Below are positions 9,909-18,597 of a stretch of 64,000 nucleotides of DNA, one piece after another. The notes below the pieces were generated by a model that made no database searches, had not been told where the DNA came from, and worked only from the letters and a program-made list of their open reading frames with translations. The position numbers and the translations under genes were made by a program. This DNA is from SAR116 cluster bacterium AG-426-B08 (GTDB lineage: Bacteria; Pseudomonadota; Alphaproteobacteria; Puniceispirillales; Marisalimonadaceae): contig QCNN01000001.1 in assembly GCA_003213175.1 (NCBI GenBank), forward strand, positions 62,001 to 126,000, written 5' to 3'. Numbering within the stretch: the first letter of the stretch is position 1; each line of letters starts with the position of its first letter.

Positions 9909-10697
9909 TTATTTTAGATCTATTTCCATTATAATTGGGACATGATCCGAAGGTTTTTCCCAATCCCTAATCTCTTTACAAATAATTCCTTTAGAAACTT
10001 TGTCAGATAAATTTTTTGAAACCCAAATATGATCTAATCTTCTACCTCTATCTGATTTTTTCCAATCTCTATTTCTGTATGACCACCATGAATAAAGTTT
10101 TTCTTCATAAGGAATAATTTTTCTCATAATGTCTATCCAATTACAAGATTTTTCAAATTTAATTAATGAAGTTGTTTCTATTGGAGTATGGGAAACTACG
10201 TTTAATAATTGTTTATGAGACCAAACGTCATTTTCGTGAGGTGCAATGTTTAAATCACCAACTAGTATTGTATTAATATTTTTTTTATTTTCAAAAAAAC
10301 TTTCCATTTCACTTATAAATTTTATTTTGTGATCAAATTTTTTGTTAGTTTTTCTATCAGGAATATCTCCACCCGCAGGTACATAAAAGTTATGCAATGT
10401 GATGTTATTTTTTAAAATTACTGAAATATGTCTAGTATCTCCCAATCCACAAAAATTTTCATGTGTTTCTTTTATAAAAGGTATATTAGAAATTATTGCA
10501 ACTCCATTATAGGATTTTTCTCCTCTAATTGAAATGTGCTTCATGCCTATATTTTTAAAATCATCAATTGGGAAAAATTCGTCTTGAGTTTTAGTTTCTT
10601 GCAAACAGATAACGTCTATATCGTATTCTTTTACAAAACGGATAACGTTTTGTATACGCAGTCTTACAGAGTTTATATTCCAAGTTGCTATTCGCAT
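9909..10697 (-). CDS. xthA: Exodeoxyribonuclease III
   Basis: AP endonuclease/3'-5' exonuclease of base-excision repair. Using the ATG at 10695-10697, which has GGAG just upstream, the protein is 262 residues and starts MRIATWNINSVR; an in-frame GTG four codons earlier is less likely. Active-site residues are visible: Glu34 in CLQETK, Tyr105 in NFYVPAGGD, Asp148/Asn150 in VGDLNIAP, Asp222 in RRLDHIWVS, and Asp251-His252 in PSDHVP. Complete and ordinary. Confidence 0.95.
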   Translation of the reverse strand: MRIATWNINSVRLRIQNVIRFVKEYDIDVICLQETKTQDEFFPIDDFKNIGMKHISIRGEKSYNGVAIISNIPFIKETHENFCGLGDTRHISVILKNNITLHNFYVPAGGDIPDRKTNKKFDHKIKFISEMESFFENKKNINTILVGDLNIAPHENDVWSHKQLLNVVSHTPIETTSLIKFEKSCNWIDIMRKIIPYEEKLYSWWSYRNRDWKKSDRGRRLDHIWVSKNLSDKVSKGIICKEIRDWEKPSDHVPIIMEIDLK

Positions 10698-10888
10698 TGG
10701 AAACTCCACACTCCAAAAATACTCAGATTATTCATTCTTTTTCTATACATTTAATACATATCAATAATTATTGAACTAAAATCCATGTCTACAAAATTTA
10801 TTTTAACATAACACATCTAAAAAACCATATATCCAAAGTAGCAGAAAGTTAAATTCAGCTTTTAATGAAAAAAAACTACTAAAGTCAA

Positions 10889-11944
10889 TTATCTTAAAAC
10901 TTGATTACATAAATTTTTGAAAACTTTCATATCAACTATTTGATTGGCATAAGTTAATTCTTGAAAATCAAATTTTAAATTTTTGTCACCAGTAATTTTG
11001 TTAACTCTAGAAAAATAAAAATAGTGATCTATATCACAGATTTCTGCCATAACATTAAAATTATGTCTTGTAAAATGATTGAATTTTTTTGAATTCTTTT
11101 CTGTATACCAATCTTCAGAATTTTTTATGTAGTTAGCAGATAACTCAATGACTTTTGATCCTGGCTGGGCAAATAGTAGATTTGTAAGAGCGGCTCCATG
11201 CATGGAAATTATTATCTTGCTTGAAGAAAATAGATCAATTTGCTCTTCGAAACTTTTACCAGTAAGAGTAATATTTTCGAAATTATATTTTTTTAAATAA
11301 TCGTAAACCTCGTCTTCGTTTTCTATAATTCTCATTTTTGAGTCTTTTCTTGATATGAAAATATTTTTCTGAGGAGTTACGTATTTTTTTGAATAAAATT
11401 TTTTATATAATTTTATTGTTCTATCAAATTTTCTGTTAGCAACAATTATTGAATTTTTAAACTTATATAAATTGTTTTTTTTAAGAACAAGTATTGGACA
11501 CTCAATACTTAAACGCTCTAGAAAATGTTCTAAAACGCCCTTTATGTGAGAGTTACTTATAACAATTTTTCTAATATTTTTGTGAAACAAAAAATTTTTA
11601 TCAAAAGAAAAAAGCCTAGAGTAACAATCAATCAGGTCATGATAATAATTGCCGGTAGAACCACAAATAAATGCATCTTCAATTACTTCAATGTTATCTT
11701 TATCTCTAGAAACTTTTTTTTCAAGATTAACATTTAGTAATTCTGAATATTTTTCTTTAACATAAAAACCGAAAAGATCAGTAGAAGTACAAAAGTTTTC
11801 TGCACATATAGGCAAATAAAAATCTGTTGTTAGGTAAAAGTTACCGTAAAAAGATATAAATTTAAAATTATTATGAATATTTTTAATTAACTTTTTTTTT
11901 AGTGAGGAGTTAAATATGAAATTTAAATTAAAATTTTCTATCAA
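10889..11944 (-). CDS. Glycosyltransferase family 61-type protein
   Basis: Predicted cytosolic glycosyltransferase for surface polysaccharide. The 351-residue protein shows the GT61 (DUF563) pattern: GNYYHDLIDCYSRL (98-111), NIFISRKDSKMR (194-205), and SMHGAALTNLLFAQPGSKVIE (about 247-267), the last being the family hallmark. No signal peptide or membrane segment. It overlaps the upstream FkbM-type methyltransferase by 4 bp, so the two are co-translated and probably modify the same glycan. Donor and acceptor cannot be told from the sequence. The 180 bp downstream up to xthA holds no gene. Confidence 0.8.
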   Translation of the reverse strand: MIENFNLNFIFNSSLKKKLIKNIHNNFKFISFYGNFYLTTDFYLPICAENFCTSTDLFGFYVKEKYSELLNVNLEKKVSRDKDNIEVIEDAFICGSTGNYYHDLIDCYSRLFSFDKNFLFHKNIRKIVISNSHIKGVLEHFLERLSIECPILVLKKNNLYKFKNSIIVANRKFDRTIKLYKKFYSKKYVTPQKNIFISRKDSKMRIIENEDEVYDYLKKYNFENITLTGKSFEEQIDLFSSSKIIISMHGAALTNLLFAQPGSKVIELSANYIKNSEDWYTEKNSKKFNHFTRHNFNVMAEICDIDHYFYFSRVNKITGDKNLKFDFQELTYANQIVDMKVFKNLCNQVLR

Positions 11945-12867
11945 ATTTTTTCCTCTTTAAAGCTCAAAAACAAATCTATATGTGAGTATTTTTTAAAGTG
12001 ATTGGTAACTCTTTTATTTAACATTTCAAGATCTTCATAATTCCAGTTTTCAGGGTTATGAATATTAAATTTTGTAAATAATCTCTTTATAAAACTTAAA
12101 TTCGTATCTAAGGAATTATAATTTATTAACTCAATTTGCATGCTTTTAATCTTGATAGTTAGCAAATCTTCAATTAAATCTTGCTCTGATCCCTCTATAT
12201 CTATCTTTAAAAAATCAACTTCACAAACATTATTTTCTTTCAAGAAAGTTTTTAAAGTTAAAGTTTTGATAGTTTCATAGTTTTCGAATTTTAAGTTTTG
12301 TATTTTTATTTTTTTAACAACATTCATTGTACTTATCGTATTAGTTATTTCATCAAAACCATCTTTTCCAGACATAATAATGTTAAATGGCTTTATCAAA
12401 GAATTTAACTGAGGATTGTGTGATAGATTTTTCTTCAAAATATTATAATTTTTAGGAGAACCTTCTACACTAAAGATTTTTGCTTCTTGAAATTTAGATG
12501 CTAGATACATTGAGCATTCTCCCCAACAAGCACCAATATCAATAATATTTTTAGGTTTTATATTTAAATTTGATAAAAATTCTTCTGATTGAATAAAAGT
12601 TGAAGTAATTTTTGTTCCAACATGCTTTAAATAATATGGAGTGCATATCATCAACTTTAGACCACTTACTTTAATAAATGCTGTCTTATCTTCAAAAATA
12701 ATCTCATTTTGTAAATCAAAGTAATTTATTAAATTAGATAAAGATCTAATTATATTGTAAATTAAACCACTTCTTAAAAATCTATTTTCATTTTTATATA
12801 AGTCTGTATCCTGTTTTTTTTGATTTATGCCTAGATAAACTCTTTGTGCAAATTCTTTTTTATCCAT
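11941..12867 (-). CDS. FkbM-family SAM-dependent methyltransferase
   Basis: Predicted O-methyltransferase, commonly acting on sugars of surface glycans. In the 308 residues, SAM-binding motif I is IIDIGACWGECS (108-119), the acidic end of beta-2 is FSVEGSPKN (132-140), and the FkbM signature VDFLKIDIEGSEQD spans 217-230. Its 3' end overlaps the GT61-type gene by 4 bp. The 172 bp between this start and the WYL regulator is AT-rich with no recognised gene or motif. Target unknown. Confidence 0.85.
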   Translation of the reverse strand: MDKKEFAQRVYLGINQKKQDTDLYKNENRFLRSGLIYNIIRSLSNLINYFDLQNEIIFEDKTAFIKVSGLKLMICTPYYLKHVGTKITSTFIQSEEFLSNLNIKPKNIIDIGACWGECSMYLASKFQEAKIFSVEGSPKNYNILKKNLSHNPQLNSLIKPFNIIMSGKDGFDEITNTISTMNVVKKIKIQNLKFENYETIKTLTLKTFLKENNVCEVDFLKIDIEGSEQDLIEDLLTIKIKSMQIELINYNSLDTNLSFIKRLFTKFNIHNPENWNYEDLEMLNKRVTNHFKKYSHIDLFLSFKEEKI

Positions 12868-13039
12868 ATATTAAACTATATTTTTGTTATAATAATTTTA
12901 AAGTAATTTTAATTTTTTTCATTACACTATCGTCTTAAAACTTGTATGGACATCATTTTATTAAATAAAATTACCTATCATCAAGTACTTTAATCTTAAT
13001 AATTATAGTATAAACCAATCTCAATAAACTAATTAATAA

Positions 13040-14029
13040 CTAACTCGCAGCTTTATTACAAAGTTTAATATAGCTCATAAAATCTTTTTTTAATTGTTCT
13101 GGCTCTAATATACTTATCTCTCCTAGCCAATCTGGATGCATCAACTCATGTATCAGTTCGTTAGAGTAGTTACATTTTAAGTTTAATATTAAAGAGTCAT
13201 CTTTATTCATAATCTTAGTTTGAGATGGATGAAATATTACATTTTCTACCAAGTGCGCGATTTTTCTACTAAATTTGATTGAAATTTTTGTTGTTTTTTT
13301 CCCTTTTTTAATACCATATTTTTTTTGCCACCATTCTTTGACATAATTTTTGTTTGGTTTTGCAAATAGAATATTTGATTTAAAAACATCTCTTATCAAA
13401 TCTAATCTATACAACAAAGTTTTATTAGCTGAATTGAAAGCAATCAACCAACAATATTTATCAAAAATCAATCCTAAAGGCTTAACATTTAAAAATTTTC
13501 TACTTTTTTTAATTTTTTCAAAATATTTGAACCTTACTTCCGTTCCTTTATCTATAGATTGTTCAATTTTAATAACTTCATTTATATTTAAATCTACTCT
13601 TGCTCCATTTACAAAAGCATAACCTATTTCTTCTAATAAAATTTTGTTATTTTTAATTATTTCTAAAGATAAAGGTTTTTTAATTGAAAGCATTTTAGTG
13701 ATTGCCTGTTTTACATTTATATCAGATACAATTTGTAGATGCCTCTCAAGTGCAGAACGCTCTAATGGTGAAATTTTTAATAATGATTTGGGTATATTTC
13801 TAATTTTATATCTTCTTATCAAGTGATGATCTCCAAGCATTTTATTATTCTCAATTTCTAGACCTAAATCTGATAATGTTGATATCCAACGCTCAATGGT
13901 TCTTTTGCTAGGGTTCATACCAATATTTTTACATTTTTCTATAATTTCATTTTTAGTCAATCCCATAGAACTTGATTGAAGAAAAGTTGCTAACAAAAAT
14001 AAATTTTTAATTTCTTTAGTAGTAGCCAT
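13040..14029 (-). CDS. WYL-domain transcriptional regulator
   Basis: Predicted DNA-binding regulator with a ligand-sensing WYL domain. The N-terminus (about residues 1-60) is a winged-helix segment (LTKNEIIEKCKNIGMNPSKRTIERWISTLSDLGLEIE). The middle third is a WYL domain with a basic RFKYF strand, NVKPLGLIFDKYCWLIAFN and YRLDLIRDV, followed by a WCX-like C-terminus. The ATG at 14027-14029 has AAGAGAT upstream; a frame seven codons longer also exists. It is transcribed away from an FkbM-like gene across a 158-bp gap with an inverted repeat. Target genes and ligand unknown. Confidence 0.85.
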   Translation of the reverse strand: MATTKEIKNLFLLATFLQSSSMGLTKNEIIEKCKNIGMNPSKRTIERWISTLSDLGLEIENNKMLGDHHLIRRYKIRNIPKSLLKISPLERSALERHLQIVSDINVKQAITKMLSIKKPLSLEIIKNNKILLEEIGYAFVNGARVDLNINEVIKIEQSIDKGTEVRFKYFEKIKKSRKFLNVKPLGLIFDKYCWLIAFNSANKTLLYRLDLIRDVFKSNILFAKPNKNYVKEWWQKKYGIKKGKKTTKISIKFSRKIAHLVENVIFHPSQTKIMNKDDSLILNLKCNYSNELIHELMHPDWLGEISILEPEQLKKDFMSYIKLCNKAAS

Positions 14030-14060
14030 AAAACATCTCTTAAACGTCATACTGTGTCGT

Positions 14061-14148
14061 TATAAAAAAGTCCATCTTTTAATAAATTTATTGTTAAATT
14101 GTTTGTTAAAATTTATTTAATTATTGTCTTATAAGGACTTTGTTTATA
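14061..14148. promoter_or_regulatory. Inverted repeat in WYL/FkbM-like divergent gap
   Basis: The arm at 14061-14073 (TATAAAAAAGTCC) is nearly the reverse complement of the arm at 14135-14148 (GGACTTTGTTTATA), with one extra base, separated by about 61 bp of AT-rich DNA. The second arm also contains the 8-bp palindrome CTTATAAG just upstream of GGACT. A position between two divergent genes fits paired operator half-sites, possibly for the WYL protein itself. Inference from position only. Confidence 0.3.
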
Positions 14149-14187
14149 AATTAAGTCATATTTAAAATTATTATAATATAGAACCCA

Positions 14188-14931
14188 ATGATGAAAAATT
14201 CTAAATTAATTTGGATTGATATTGGCACTCACTTTGGTCAAGAATATAAATCTATTTTTTCGAATCAAACTTACTTTGCTTGGAAGCTATTCAGACGTTT
14301 TATAGGAAGTAAGGTTTTTTCAAAAGGTAAATTTTTAAAAATCTCAGAATTAGCAGAATTATTCAAAAATAGGAAAGCATTAAGAAAAAATAAAAATATT
14401 TTTTATTTTACTTTCATAGAGGCAAATCCAAAAATTATAGCCATGAAAGTTTATTCTGAAGCAAATGATGTTTTTTGTCTTGCTCTTGGTCAAAATAAAA
14501 TAAAGAAATTTTCTGTAGGAAAATTATACCATGTTGACAGAAACGAAACATCTCAAGGAAACTCTATCTATAAGACAAAAACAAATGTTAATATTAACAA
14601 CTTTACTACTTGTGTTATTCAAAATCCCTTTTTATTTGCAACTGAATATAAAGGATACTTAGACGAATTATTTTCTAATTACAAAATTATCTTGCGTTTA
14701 AATTGTGAAGGTTCTGAAGATGATATTATATATGCTTTGAAAAATTGTTTTCAAGAAAAACTTAAATATGTATTTGGATCTCTTAAAGATGTAAAAACAG
14801 TTAAAGGAGATAAAGCTTTTCAGAAAATGATGTCTTTTATTCAAGAAAAAGAACTAAGTTATGTTGATTTTTCCTCCTCTGTAGAAACATGTCCAAAAGC
14901 ATTTAAAAAAATAAATCAAATAATAAATTGA
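14188..14931 (+). CDS. Diverged FkbM-like methyltransferase
   Basis: A 247-residue protein whose start LIWIDIGTHFGQE resembles SAM motif I, with FTFIEANPKI as a beta-2 motif, a QGNSIYKTKTN segment, and LRLNCEGSEDDII in place of the FkbM LKIDIEGSE motif. The Asn-Cys substitution before EGSE and overall divergence make activity uncertain. No signal peptide or membrane segment. It stands alone on the plus strand, divergent from the WYL regulator. The 223 bp that follow up to the next gene hold no recognisable feature. Confidence 0.6.
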   Translation: MMKNSKLIWIDIGTHFGQEYKSIFSNQTYFAWKLFRRFIGSKVFSKGKFLKISELAELFKNRKALRKNKNIFYFTFIEANPKIIAMKVYSEANDVFCLALGQNKIKKFSVGKLYHVDRNETSQGNSIYKTKTNVNINNFTTCVIQNPFLFATEYKGYLDELFSNYKIILRLNCEGSEDDIIYALKNCFQEKLKYVFGSLKDVKTVKGDKAFQKMMSFIQEKELSYVDFSSSVETCPKAFKKINQIIN

Positions 14932-15154
14932 TGTTATTTTTATAAAAATTAATTCCTATTTCTCTTATGTAATATAACATTCATTTAGTTAAATCTCTAA
15001 TGGAGGCAATAATAACGTAAAAAAATAATCTTACTTTTCCTAGAAATGTTTTATTCTTATTTAGTTGATTATATTTTTCTAAGCCACATTGTGTTTTTAT
15101 AAACTTGTTATTCATACTCTAGATTAAATCATTAAAATTTATATTTGAATATTT

Positions 15155-15376
15155 TTATAATTTTCCAAAAAGAGGCAATAGCTGAATAAAACCAAACAAA
15201 ACAAAAAAACATCCAAAAATTACTTTTGTTCTGGGATTTATAATTGGTAAACTATCTAAGTCAAAATCTTTTTTGCTCTGTCTATAACCATATAGAATTA
15301 AAGTTAAACCAAATAAAAATATTCCTGAACCTATTTCAGGAGAAACTAAAATATCTAAATTAAGACTTTTATTCAT
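15155..15376 (-). CDS. Small two-helix membrane protein, unknown
   Basis: A 73-residue protein with two hydrophobic segments (about residues 17-31, GSGIFLFGLTLILYG, and 49-69, VIFGCFFVLFGFIQLLPLFG) joined by a charged loop, a layout typical of small inner-membrane proteins. It starts 5 bp after the stop of the GT8-like gene and is on the same strand, so it is probably translated from the same transcript. I do not recognise the family. Its position suggests an accessory role in glycan assembly, but that is only context. Confidence 0.5.
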   Translation of the reverse strand: MNKSLNLDILVSPEIGSGIFLFGLTLILYGYRQSKKDFDLDSLPIINPRTKVIFGCFFVLFGFIQLLPLFGKL

Positions 15377-15381
15377 TTTTA

Positions 15382-16071
15382 TTATATATTTTTTTTGTAA
15401 AAACCATCCAATAATCTTTTAAAACTGTCATGCCAATGTTTTGATAAAGAGGTGTTTTCAAACTCTTTAAAGCAAGGGGTCCCTAATGTATAATGGATCA
15501 ATTTTAAATCTTTTTTTTCTGGATATTCCATTGCCAACCAATTCCATTCCTTTTTAATTTCTCCAATTTCAACATCATTAAGCCATTTAAATCTATGAAG
15601 ATAAGATCCATCTTTATCAGATATAAACTCTGGAGTTAAAATTTTATTTTTTTTGTGAGAACAATTCCACAAAATTAAACTAGACCAATTTTTTCTAGGA
15701 TAATCTTCATTTCTTTGACCAAAGTATTTTGTTTTATATTTAGTCTTATAGTCATGCTTTATTACTTGTAATGCAAATTTATTATCTCTTAAATCTAGAA
15801 GGTTTTTTATATCATCTAAACATACCATGTCACCATCAGCAAAAATGGCCCATCCATCAAAACCCATCAAAAATGGCACTAAAAATCTACTATATGTGAA
15901 TTTATTAGTACCATCTATGTGATTTTCATCATACATGTTTAAGTTATTTTCAGCCAATGGAGTAATGCTTAAAGGGATTGAGGATTTATCAATTATTGAC
16001 TGAACAAATGTATGATAAGCAACAGATTCTTTTTGATCAAAACCTATAAATAAATTGTTTAGTTTATTCAT
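15382..16071 (-). CDS. GT8-like glycosyltransferase
   Basis: A 229-residue protein with IFADGDMVCLDDI around residues 76-88; the DGD (79-81) is in the place of the metal-binding DxD of nucleotide-sugar glycosyltransferases. The N-terminal LFIGFDQKESVAYHTFVQSI and the C-terminal KLIHYTLGTPCF are like GT8-type transferases. No signal peptide. It overlaps the upstream TPR-glycosyltransferase by 8 bp, indicating coupling. Assigned to glycan synthesis by domain style and neighbours; exact sugar unknown. Confidence 0.65.
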   Translation of the reverse strand: MNKLNNLFIGFDQKESVAYHTFVQSIIDKSSIPLSITPLAENNLNMYDENHIDGTNKFTYSRFLVPFLMGFDGWAIFADGDMVCLDDIKNLLDLRDNKFALQVIKHDYKTKYKTKYFGQRNEDYPRKNWSSLILWNCSHKKNKILTPEFISDKDGSYLHRFKWLNDVEIGEIKKEWNWLAMEYPEKKDLKLIHYTLGTPCFKEFENTSLSKHWHDSFKRLLDGFYKKNI

Positions 16072-17986
16072 TTTTTAATCTTTCTTTTAATGTTTTAATC
16101 GGATAATCCCAACTTTCTTCATTATTATTTTGTAAAATATTTATACTTGGATACCAAAAACTTTTTTCATTTTTTTTATTCCAATTCCACAATCTACCTC
16201 GTCCAAAAGGAAGAAGCAAAAATGTCTTTTTATTTAAGGCTCCACATATGTGCGCATTAACATTGCTGCAAGTTATTACAAAATCACATGCATCAATTAT
16301 AGATGTCAATCCTATTATATCACTAAAATTATTAATACTTTCTTCTTTATGTATTTTCACACCGTAATTGCGAAAAATAAGTTTTCGTTCTTCTGCTGTA
16401 TCTTTATATTCTAAATCTATAAAATTAAAATTTTTAAAGTTTAATATCGGCAATAGCTTTTCTAAATCAATACTTTTTTCTTGCGAAAGCATTGCTTTCG
16501 AGCTTGACCAAGACATTCCTACTAATATCTCACCATTTTTTTTATATTTTTTAGTTATTTTGGAAGTTACATTCTTATCTCCTGAAATATAAGGGTATTT
16601 GTTTCTTCTAAAATCAATTTCATGATTTCTTATTAAAGAACCTATACTCCCAAAGGGTAAATGATGATCGAAATCATCATCAAATAATTTATCTCCTTTT
16701 CCAATGAAAGTTATATCTGAGTGTAAATCTTTAAAAATTGGAATAAGTCTTTTATCTAATTTAACAATTAATTTCCCAACATGTGTTGATAGTTCACTAA
16801 ACATACTGCCATACATAATCTGATCACCAATACCTTGTTCTGACCATGTAAATAACGTAATTTTTTTATTTAATTCAATTAGCTGTTTTTTCTTGGTATT
16901 TATTTTTTTTTGATGATAATCTTTACAATCCCATCTACTCTCAAAATTCTTCCAACCCAACTCAAAACTCCTAGAGTATAACTGTAATTGTCCAAGATAA
17001 TATATTCCTTCATAAAATTGAGGGTTAATTTCAATACTCTTTTTAAGGTAATTAATTGCCTCTTCAGTTTTATCATAAAAAGAAGTAATTACGGCTAAGT
17101 TTTTGTAGGCATTAAAATTGTTGGGATCTAGATTTATAGCTTTTTTGTGATTTTTAATAGCGTCAAAATAGTTACCTAGTTTTTCATCTGCTAAACCTAT
17201 TAATGTATAGATATCGGAGGAATTTTTTTCCAACCTCAAAGCATCTAAAAAGATTCCTTTTGCCTCTTTAACATTATTCTGGTTTAATTTTACAAGTCCA
17301 TATAAAATTCTAATTTCATTATAATCATCTTGTCTTGAATTGATTTGATCTAGAATTTTAATTGCATTATTAGTTTCTTTTATATCAAGTAAATGTCTAC
17401 AAAATTCTATAGAAATTTCTAAGTTATTTGGATAATTAAGCAAAAGCTCGTTATAAACTTTAAATGCAGATTTATAATTAAATAATCTTATGTGTGCTCT
17501 TGCAATTAATAAATTTGTTTCAAGTTCCTTTGGCTTTAAAATTTTAGATAATTTTAATGCTTCTAAACTTTGTTTATATAATTTTAATCCAGATAGAGAC
17601 TTTGATAAATTAATATAAAAAACTTCTTCAAAAGGACATAGAGATATTGCTTTTTCTTGATATAGTTTTGCTTTTTTAAAATCTAATATTGATCCATGAT
17701 AGTCCCCTAATAACCCATACAAATATCCATTATTAGGTTCTAATTTTATTAACTCAAGTAACTTTAAAGCAAAATCATTGTTCCTAATGTCTTTTTGCAG
17801 ATTAATAATTTCATGAAAAAGTTTAGACTGTTCAATATGTTTTTTTTTATTAGAGTTTATGAATTCATCTATTCTTTTATTAAGTGGATATTTATCTCTA
17901 ATTTCTGAAATATAATTTAGAGCGTTTCTAAGTTCTTTTCTATTCAAACTTAACTGCACTTTTTTTAATAAATTTTCTAAATTCAT
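16064..17986 (-). CDS. TPR protein with C-terminal glycosyltransferase domain
   Basis: A 640-residue two-part protein. Residues about 35-350 are repeated 34-residue TPR units (for example DIYTLIGLADEKLGNYFDAIKNHKKAINLDPNNF split over two units). Residues about 370-640 resemble GT9/GT41-like transferases: SEQGIGDQIMYG near the start, VGMSWSSSKAM, then a late ITCSNVNAHICGALNKKTFLLLP segment corresponding to the donor-site loop of heptosyltransferase-like folds. Such TPR-GT proteins glycosylate proteins or surface polymers; the target cannot be inferred. Begins 8 bp after lolA and overlaps the GT8-like gene. Confidence 0.75.
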   Translation of the reverse strand: MNLENLLKKVQLSLNRKELRNALNYISEIRDKYPLNKRIDEFINSNKKKHIEQSKLFHEIINLQKDIRNNDFALKLLELIKLEPNNGYLYGLLGDYHGSILDFKKAKLYQEKAISLCPFEEVFYINLSKSLSGLKLYKQSLEALKLSKILKPKELETNLLIARAHIRLFNYKSAFKVYNELLLNYPNNLEISIEFCRHLLDIKETNNAIKILDQINSRQDDYNEIRILYGLVKLNQNNVKEAKGIFLDALRLEKNSSDIYTLIGLADEKLGNYFDAIKNHKKAINLDPNNFNAYKNLAVITSFYDKTEEAINYLKKSIEINPQFYEGIYYLGQLQLYSRSFELGWKNFESRWDCKDYHQKKINTKKKQLIELNKKITLFTWSEQGIGDQIMYGSMFSELSTHVGKLIVKLDKRLIPIFKDLHSDITFIGKGDKLFDDDFDHHLPFGSIGSLIRNHEIDFRRNKYPYISGDKNVTSKITKKYKKNGEILVGMSWSSSKAMLSQEKSIDLEKLLPILNFKNFNFIDLEYKDTAEERKLIFRNYGVKIHKEESINNFSDIIGLTSIIDACDFVITCSNVNAHICGALNKKTFLLLPFGRGRLWNWNKKNEKSFWYPSINILQNNNEESWDYPIKTLKERLKNE

Positions 17987-17994
17987 AATTATTC

Positions 17995-18597
17995 TTAATC
18001 AAAATCTTCAGGAAAAAATAAAAGATAGGATAATTCATTACCAACTTGTAAATTTTGGATCAAAACGTTAGTTTCATTTTCAAAATTATCTTTTATTACC
18101 CATTTTTTTAATTGAATTGGATTTTCAGAAAAGGTGAGTATGAGAGCAGATTGATCTTTTTTTTCGCTATCTACAATTGTTAATGAAAGCAAACCGGAAT
18201 CTTTTTTTAGTGAAAATTTAATAAAATTGTTTTTTACATCAAATTGTTGATTTAATAAAAAATTCAATGGCGTTTGATTTACTGGTACATTGTTTGTCTT
18301 TTTTGTTTTTCTGTCTTGAATACTTAACCAAAATCCCTGACAAGTTATTAATATATTATTAGGTTTGTGATAATCGAACCTTAACTTTCCTGGTAAATCT
18401 AAATAAAATTTTCCCTCACTTACGTTACCTGAAGGGCCAATCTGTATAAAATCTGCTTCTAATGTCTTGAGGTTTTTAAAATAACTTTTAATTTTACTCA
18501 AAATAATTTCATTTTCAGAACCAATTACAAAATCGGATTTAAATAATAATAAAACAAAACAAACTATCAAAATATAAATATTAAAAGTTTTACTCAT
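17995..18597 (-). CDS. lolA: Outer-membrane lipoprotein carrier LolA
   Basis: Periplasmic chaperone that carries lipoproteins from LolCDE to the outer membrane. The 200-residue precursor has an N-terminal signal peptide (hydrophobic 7-21, cleavage probably near residue 26). The mature part has LolA features: KTLEADFIQIGPSGNVSEGKF, LPGKLRFDYHKPN, and PLNFLL. The start codon shares one base with the ftsK stop, a common arrangement in alphaproteobacteria, and supports the call despite low sequence conservation. Confidence 0.92.
   Translation of the reverse strand: MSKTFNIYILIVCFVLLLFKSDFVIGSENEIILSKIKSYFKNLKTLEADFIQIGPSGNVSEGKFYLDLPGKLRFDYHKPNNILITCQGFWLSIQDRKTKKTNNVPVNQTPLNFLLNQQFDVKNNFIKFSLKKDSGLLSLTIVDSEKKDQSALILTFSENPIQLKKWVIKDNFENETNVLIQNLQVGNELSYLLFFPEDFD

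Follow-up and report, generated by a model that had tools for sequence, protein, structure and literature searches.

A putative glycosylation island with a fixed core and exchangeable cargo between lolA and xthA in low-GC SAR116 bacteria

Known glycan islands and the lolA-xthA interval

Hypervariable glycan islands are thought to be a meeting place of marine bacteria and phages, where, as a rule, the entire block is altered and the traces of its past are lost. Passages of PMC4033161 describe the replacement flexible genomic islands of aquatic prokaryotes as surface-glycosylation genes kept at one address with a content differing by lineage; complete clusters are exchanged, no clear hallmarks of illegitimate recombination are reported, and the exchange is attributed to homologous recombination of similar flanks. 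For low-GC (guanine plus cytosine) genomospecies of SAR116, a section of PMC8547437 describes metagenomic islands, which are hypervariable regions that hold genes for outer-envelope glycans and keep a constant position, and proposes a role of these in phage recognition. A low-GC SAR116 strain in culture is reported in PMC12421898. In Caulobacter, according to part of PMC7591256, the flagellin O-glycosyltransferase FlmG binds flagellin by its N-terminal tetratricopeptide repeats (TPR) and glycosylates it by its C-terminal glycosyltransferase (GT) domain. The element analysed here is the interval between xthA and lolA in a 64,000-nucleotide stretch of SAR116 cluster bacterium AG-426-B08 (assembly GCA_003213175.1, contig QCNN01000001.1, positions 62,001 to 126,000), hereafter the window, where the block of seven open reading frames (ORFs) announced by the original prediction was indeed present at positions 10889-17986.

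The block is most likely an island of the replacement type, a kind already known, which would serve protein or surface glycosylation and has a fixed core. With a probability of roughly 75%, low-GC SAR116 bacteria carry a flexible glycosylation island at a fixed address (ftsK-lolA on one side, xthA-dapF on the other), where a fixed core is combined with interchangeable cargo and turnover proceeds by deletion and exchange. The locus resembles the islands of PMC4033161 in holding putative surface-glycosylation genes at one address with lineage-specific content. In contrast to the exchange of complete clusters reported in those passages, three genes on the lolA side stay the same, and individual core genes differ in their histories; moreover, many SAR116 relatives are empty and four of them bear deletion scars, in a comparison that was made here between species. 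The islands of PMC8547437 belong to the same clade and share the constant place and the type of gene, but the flanking genes are unnamed in that text, and thus identity with the lolA-xthA locus may not hold. No literature combining lolA, xthA and a genomic island was found.

Fixed core and variable cargo across the family

Of the 136 genomes sampled from the order, 58 belong to the family of the window; the positions of ftsK, xthA and the GT8-type gene were taken and the intervals were read, which gives a comparison between species and not between strains. Both lolA and xthA were on one contig in 31 of the 58 family genomes. Thirteen of these closed intervals contained the core plus cargo (G000, G005, G006, G007, G013, G016, G027, G030, G031, G034, G074, G079, and G081), 16 were empty, with 60-273 nucleotides (nt) from lolA to xthA (G003, G009, G010, G011, G015, G021, G025, G032, G036, G063, G064, G066, G072, G076, G078, and G080), and two held a single other gene, a methyltransferase in G070 and an acyltransferase in G073. 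The block begins beside lolA in seven more genomes (G002, G017, G018, G022, G061, G065, and G067), where the contig ends or other chromosomal genes follow before xthA. The core was also found on a short contig in G024 and at another site, between methyltransferase-like and alpha/beta hydrolase genes, in G023. The interval state was left untyped in 18 of the 58 genomes, and G002 was scored as a core genome solely from a TPR-glycosyltransferase (TPR-GT) gene cut by the contig end. These analyses revealed high gene-content variation as well as presence and absence of the block, rather than the same genes in the same order throughout the lineage, which bears out the hypervariable content anticipated for the interval.

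The address itself was constant: ftsK and lolA were adjacent in 42 of 42 family loci showing both genes, and xthA and dapF in 9 of 9. The exceptions were G023, with its core elsewhere, and G061, which never returns to xthA. After the island, contig G061:C13 (L066) continues not with xthA but, by eye, with genes resembling sucA, sucD, sucC, mdh, and sdh, indicating that the chromosome differs at that spot. On the xthA side, the gene of G007 (L026) was called as two ORFs, with a stop inside the match in the genome search. An ORF for a membrane-like peptide of 38 amino acids (aa) lies just upstream of xthA (L068:929-1042, minus strand) and in the same place in G013, G070, G073, G036, G021, G022, and others; it was considered as an island border and rejected, since its presence in the empty genomes G021 and G036 makes it part of the xthA side.

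It is very improbable that this variation is an artefact of assembly or binning in incomplete genomes, although contigs do end inside the interval in G002, G014, G019, G022, G029, and others. One contig, G135:C84 (L074), is f1-like and carries a lolA-xthA island, but the genome to which it is assigned is of f2 and contains ftsK-xthA at another site; this is probably a binning error, and the contig was kept in the trees and excluded from the 58-genome counts. Misbinning is, however, not the usual fault of single-cell genomes, and both flanks close 31 intervals on single contigs, while scars and a common core would be unexpected under misassembly. The genomes of the subclade are described as mostly single-cell in a section of PMC8547437.

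The core consists of the TPR-GT, the GT8-type and a small membrane protein gene, which follow lolA in this order in 13 of 13 closed blocks. In all 20 family loci with lolA and TPR-GT, the immediate neighbour of lolA is the TPR-GT or its GT8 partner; in G061 and in the f1-like G135 contig, these two genes lie inverted in the space between lolA and the small membrane gene. ORFs were called only from 55 aa upwards, and tblastn detected the small membrane gene in 22 loci, including G006 and G023, where ORF calling had missed it. At E < 0.01, tblastn found it in 19 of 19 SAR116 GT8 loci compared to 0 of 61 other GT8 loci. The TPR-GT of G022 is spread over two ORFs (L048:7964-9879) and is possibly a decaying copy.

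The cargo, in turn, was highly variable. The 13 closed blocks contained 59 cargo genes of 30 families, 20 of which are confined to one block; all 13 arrangements were different, and 48 of the 78 block pairs were without any common family. Recurrent families were c7 (six blocks), FkbM1 (5), c10 (5), asparagine-synthase-like (5), GT4-like (4), another FkbM (4), and GT61 (3), where c7 is GT-A-like and c10 GT-B-like, both by eye. DegT and sulfotransferase genes also occur in the cargo, and, with GT and methyltransferase genes recurring, the blocks of different lineages differ in content but are similar in function. The counts omit flank and core genes as well as the labels c20 (upstream of ftsK), c55 (antisense to the small membrane gene), and c52 and c113 (short ORFs). 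The modular turnover proposed in the original prediction thus applies to the xthA side, while the lolA-side third of the block is conserved in every closed block.

Turnover and relation to phage genes

Presence and absence of the core require at least eight changes on the ftsK+lolA+xthA tree (39 typed rows). In four of the 16 empty sites (G003, G078, G080, and G009), the short sequence behind lolA could be aligned with about 75 coding bases at the 5' end of the TPR-GT gene, and in each of them 0 of 200 simple shuffles aligned as well. These decayed 5' ends indicate that the four sites arose by deletion, and the scars of G003, G078, and G080 have one common junction with xthA (by eye).

Exchange was revealed by the trees. 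In the GT8 tree, G030 and G024 of genus g3 group with G000 (g1), G023, G061, and the G135 contig, apart from the other g3 genomes, and approximately unbiased (AU) tests rejected g3 as one clade (p-AU 0.002) and g2 plus g4 together (p-AU 1.5e-5). The TPR-GT tree placed G030 with G007 and G018, while the GT8 tree placed it with G024, G023, and G000, and therefore the two genes have separate histories; since the two trees disagree not only with each other but also with the core tree, alleles have been exchanged. The groups tested for GT8 and c10 were chosen after the quick trees had been seen, so that their p-values are optimistic. In the quick tree, the island GT8 proteins of SAR116 cluster as a single clade when set among 61 relatives of other bacterial origin, which suggests one entry into the family; the careful GT8 tree included 5 of these 61 rows and omitted the distant G053 copy.

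The island of G079 is very like that of G013, while the sisters of G079, G078 and G080, bear the scar. Agreement between G013 and G079 at fourfold sites (pooled by hand) was approximately 82% of 703 in the island, approximately 70% of 280 in ftsK+lolA, and 81% of 72 in xthA. This points either to a second gain of the island by G079 or to a spread of the scar allele, and in both cases the locus moves between lineages. Island deletion and the exchange of alleles and cargo probably proceed via homologous recombination in the conserved flanks; the species compared are too distant for substitution peaks at the island borders.

Relatives of the core were found in other bacteria and in viruses. Among the best 80 GT8 loci of the matches listed, 61 were from outside SAR116, with GT8 proteins 54-64% identical to that of the window. 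These are mostly from Betaproteobacteria, and in 30 of the 61 a TPR-GT ends less than 800 nt upstream of the GT8 gene on the same strand; the pairs stand at addresses different from that in SAR116, in two Polynucleobacter loci behind an sspB-like gene (by eye), and the small membrane protein was not found in any of the 61 loci.

GT8 relatives are abundant in IMG/VR, with at least 599 stretches confirmed among the 600 listed, and examination of the flanks of the best 80 viral GT8 loci showed a c10 homologue in 44 and a c7 homologue in 18. Neither c10 nor c7 was near GT8 in any of the 61 non-SAR116 bacterial loci, and in a class-wide draw of 385 genomes c10 was found in four and c7 in two, with the window's family represented only by G000 among the matches listed. 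The three genes c7, GT8 and c10 occur together in 43 of 57 viral c10 loci, and Pelagibacter phage Mosig (MT647606), for which no literature linking it to a glycosyltransferase was found, has homologues of the three in a row. The checked viral contigs have UvsX-, UvsY-, and SSB-like neighbours; their phage identity rests on UvsY in L273, UvsX plus UvsY in L234, and SSB in L235, and otherwise on the classification of the collection itself. In PHROGs, 3 of 10 proteins of L273, L274, L282, and L283 matched a family, none of them structural. Mosig and the T4-like viral contigs thus have this gene group in common with SAR116 islands, but differ from the SAR116 core: a TPR-GT was found in 5 of the best 80 viral GT8 loci, and the small membrane protein was not found in these at E 1e-5.

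The phylogenetic analysis of c10 (17 chosen viral rows of 96 in the careful tree) revealed SAR116 copies interleaved with those of phages, one island group sitting with marine viral copies, and SAR116 c10 as one clade was rejected (p-AU 0.006, viral rows chosen). In the c7 tree (30 of 45 viral rows), the SAR116 copies form one group with no phage-host interleaving. A viral scan with the c7 alignment, using narrow patterns, gave 37 pattern matches and none confirmed; distant viral c7 homologues were, in contrast, found by tblastn within the viral loci that GT8 or c10 had retrieved. Sharing of the asparagine-synthase-like gene with phages was considered and not counted as recent exchange, because it concerns 9 of 57 viral loci at 29-34% identity. 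The window block has GT8 and is without c7 and c10, and therefore the phage link concerns the locus and not every block. Tentatively, SAR116 bacteria and marine T4-like phages may draw on one glycan toolkit, where GT8, c10, and c7 travel together in phages beside UvsX/UvsY and c10 passed at least once from one to the other; on this reading, the island would have diversified partly with phage-carried genes, used to coat virions or re-coat infected cells, and the TPR-GT core would be a general protein-glycosylation platform retuned by its cargo. Phage selection on the locus, which the original prediction had suggested by analogy, is plausible.

Genes of the window and their putative roles

Table 1. 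Genes of the xthA-lolA interval of the window and its flanks (positions in the window).
Feature	Position	Strand	Evidence
xthA-like exonuclease III, right flank, then dapF	9909..10709	-	PF03372 E 1.5e-24
GT61 glycosyltransferase, variable cargo	10889..11944	-	PF04577 E 3.7e-26, above cut-off
FkbM-family methyltransferase, variable cargo	11941..12867	-	PF05050 E 1.1e-12; NCBIfam TIGR01444 E 5.8e-21; above cut-off
WYL-like transcription regulator	13040..14050	-	WYL 19.2 bits, below 21.8-bit Pfam cut-off
Unassigned protein, possibly divergent FkbM-like methyltransferase	14188..14931	+	no family match above cut-off
Small membrane protein, two helices by eye, third core gene	15155..15376	-	20 ORFs aligned; tblastn
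GT8-type glycosyltransferase, second core gene, 229 aa	15382..16071	-	DxD-type motif conserved in alignment; fold
TPR-glycosyltransferase, first core gene, adjoins lolA, 640 aa	16064..17986	-	Pfam TPRs; model
lolA, left flank, then ftsK	17995..18597	-	PF03548 E 9.7e-22

The overlapping gene pairs described in the original prediction were confirmed, with overlaps of 4 nt (11941-11944) and 8 nt (16064-16071). The GC content of the block is 24.4%, compared to 29.5% in the remaining window, and lies in the lowest 0.7% of equal-length sliding windows; the third-position GC of its genes is ordinary (0.16-0.20 versus a mean of 0.189). No tRNA was found within 9 kb of the block, and no integrase or transposase was found with Pfam among nine scanned window proteins or in the sampled cargo of other islands. 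The window does contain ugd-, galU-, and phosphohexomutase-type genes and an oxidoreductase-DegT pair, which had been proposed as matching sugar donors, but nothing in this analysis links them to the block.

The GT61 assignment stood, and the family is also present in the G006 and G016 islands. Only one of the two FkbM-type methyltransferases originally named was recovered as such (11941-12867), its family occurring also in the islands of G006, G013, G016, G022, and G079. For the other (14188-14931), FkbM-like motifs were seen by eye only, the identity being unsupported by PF05050 (Pfam) or TIGR01444 (NCBIfam); its hhalign comparison with the island FkbM alignment gave a probability of 1.1, a weak test in that one side consisted of two sequences only. 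One relative was found, 52% identical and in the G022 island, and 81 pattern matches among viruses yielded none confirmed. The WYL call remains sub-threshold. Regulators of this kind are recurrent near xthA in two SAR116 families (window 13040-14050; L053:2126-3178; L088:1006-2058; L062:1748-2761): relatives adjoin xthA in G014 and G004 and lie one ORF from it in G053, of a different SAR116 family, and the relative in L053 has WYL and WCX matches, both sub-threshold.

The GT8 match was below the Pfam cut-off (20.7 versus 24.3 bits), but the AlphaFold model of the protein (predicted local distance difference test, pLDDT, 85.6) matched WbbM, GT8 of Anaerococcus, LARGE1, GlyE, LgtC, and glycogenin in the PDB with E down to 1.6e-9, which supports a predicted GT8-like fold. 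For the TPR-GT, the N-terminal repeats are supported by both Pfam and the model, which predicts a TPR solenoid of approximately 350 residues with an alpha/beta domain behind it (pLDDT 88.9). The C-terminal GT part has no Pfam GT match; the top PDB/Foldseek matches over the whole length are SPINDLY and human OGT, with low full-length template modelling (TM) scores of 0.22-0.33.

By analogy with FlmG, the TPR helices of the TPR-GT probably hold an acceptor protein, to which the enzyme probably adds the first sugar, which the GT8 enzyme would probably extend, the small membrane protein being a third component of the lolA-side core. The xthA-side cargo (GT61, FkbM, GT4-like, asparagine-synthase-like, DegT, sulfotransferase, and others) probably decorates the product. 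The TPR-GT shares with FlmG the order of an N-terminal TPR and a C-terminal GT part, but the sugar of FlmG is pseudaminic acid, no GT8 partner is mentioned in that part of PMC7591256, and the island TPR-GT is not at flagellin genes.

Asparagine-synthase-like and DegT genes, both present in the island cargo, are typical of O-chain and capsule loci. They are consistent with a surface-polysaccharide island, where lipid-linked sugars would be built and the TPR-GT would not be a protein glycosyltransferase, and a section of PMC8547437 reports a metagenomic island of outer-envelope (O-chain) genes for low-GC SAR116, with flanking genes not given in the text. This explanation appears unlikely, given that none of the seven window genes matched a polymerase, flippase, exporter, or ligase family in Pfam (the cargo of other islands being only sampled) and that TPR-GT relatives adjoin flagellin genes.

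Such relatives or paralogues stand beside flagellin genes in G007, G018, G002, and G048. GT8 relatives are beside fliD and a fliS-like gene in G001 and at flagellin/fliS/fliD in G018. The flagellin loci L103:1-16000 (G007:C4), L089 (G018:C8), and L102 (G048:C1) contain one to four TPR-GTs each, to which that of G007 adds an FkbM and a sub-threshold 2-oxoglutarate (2OG)-oxygenase-like gene, and this suggests elaborate flagellin glycosylation. A podovirus from a spring (MW202512) has a TPR-GT relative (E 2e-21), a GT8 relative and an FkbM-annotated gene near its major capsid gene, the last without likeness to the window FkbM. The flagellin and capsid settings suggest enzymes that sugar-coat abundant assembled proteins.

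These settings, together with the domain order and flagellin glycosylation reported for FlmG in PMC7591256, would also fit an island that glycosylates flagellin from outside the flagellar genes. The latter is the less credible of the two alternative roles. Core presence did not follow flagellin or FlhA, further TPR-GTs distinct from the island copy stand at the flagellin loci of G007, G018, and G002, and four core genomes (G027, G030, G079, and G081, all incomplete) show neither flagellin nor FlhA. A flagellin-only role was thus rejected across the 58 family genomes.

Several results also weigh against a protein-glycosylating island with turnover by deletion and exchange. Flagellin, the acceptor suggested by FlmG, is not linked to the core (15 of 22 core genomes versus 28 of 36 others), nor is FlhA (14 of 22 versus 24 of 36), and no acceptor was identified for the core; the TM-scores given above are low. 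The completeness of the family genomes ranges from 52 to 100%. Clear scars are missing from 12 of the 16 empty sites, so that evidence of loss is confined to four sites, and three of these may go back to one event. The TPR-GT tree has long branches, and its rejection of g3 (p-AU 6e-5) leans on the long G022 row, a fragment; the careful GT8 tree, with five outside rows, does not resolve a single entry, and the analysis, which did not extend to border repeats, located no crossover point.

Taken together, the lolA-xthA interval is genuinely hypervariable, a glycosylation locus whose general type is known and which here takes a variant form, with a fixed core, free cargo, scars, gene-level exchange, and a gene group shared with phages. 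Its parts are separable, namely a constant core, exchangeable cargo, scarred losses, and defined gene families shared with phages, so that gain and loss, as well as gene exchange between phage and host, become open to testing in a clade that is abundant and for the most part uncultured. The TPR-GT, the GT8 enzyme, and the small membrane protein are, in addition, a concrete candidate for a bacterial protein-glycosylation system.

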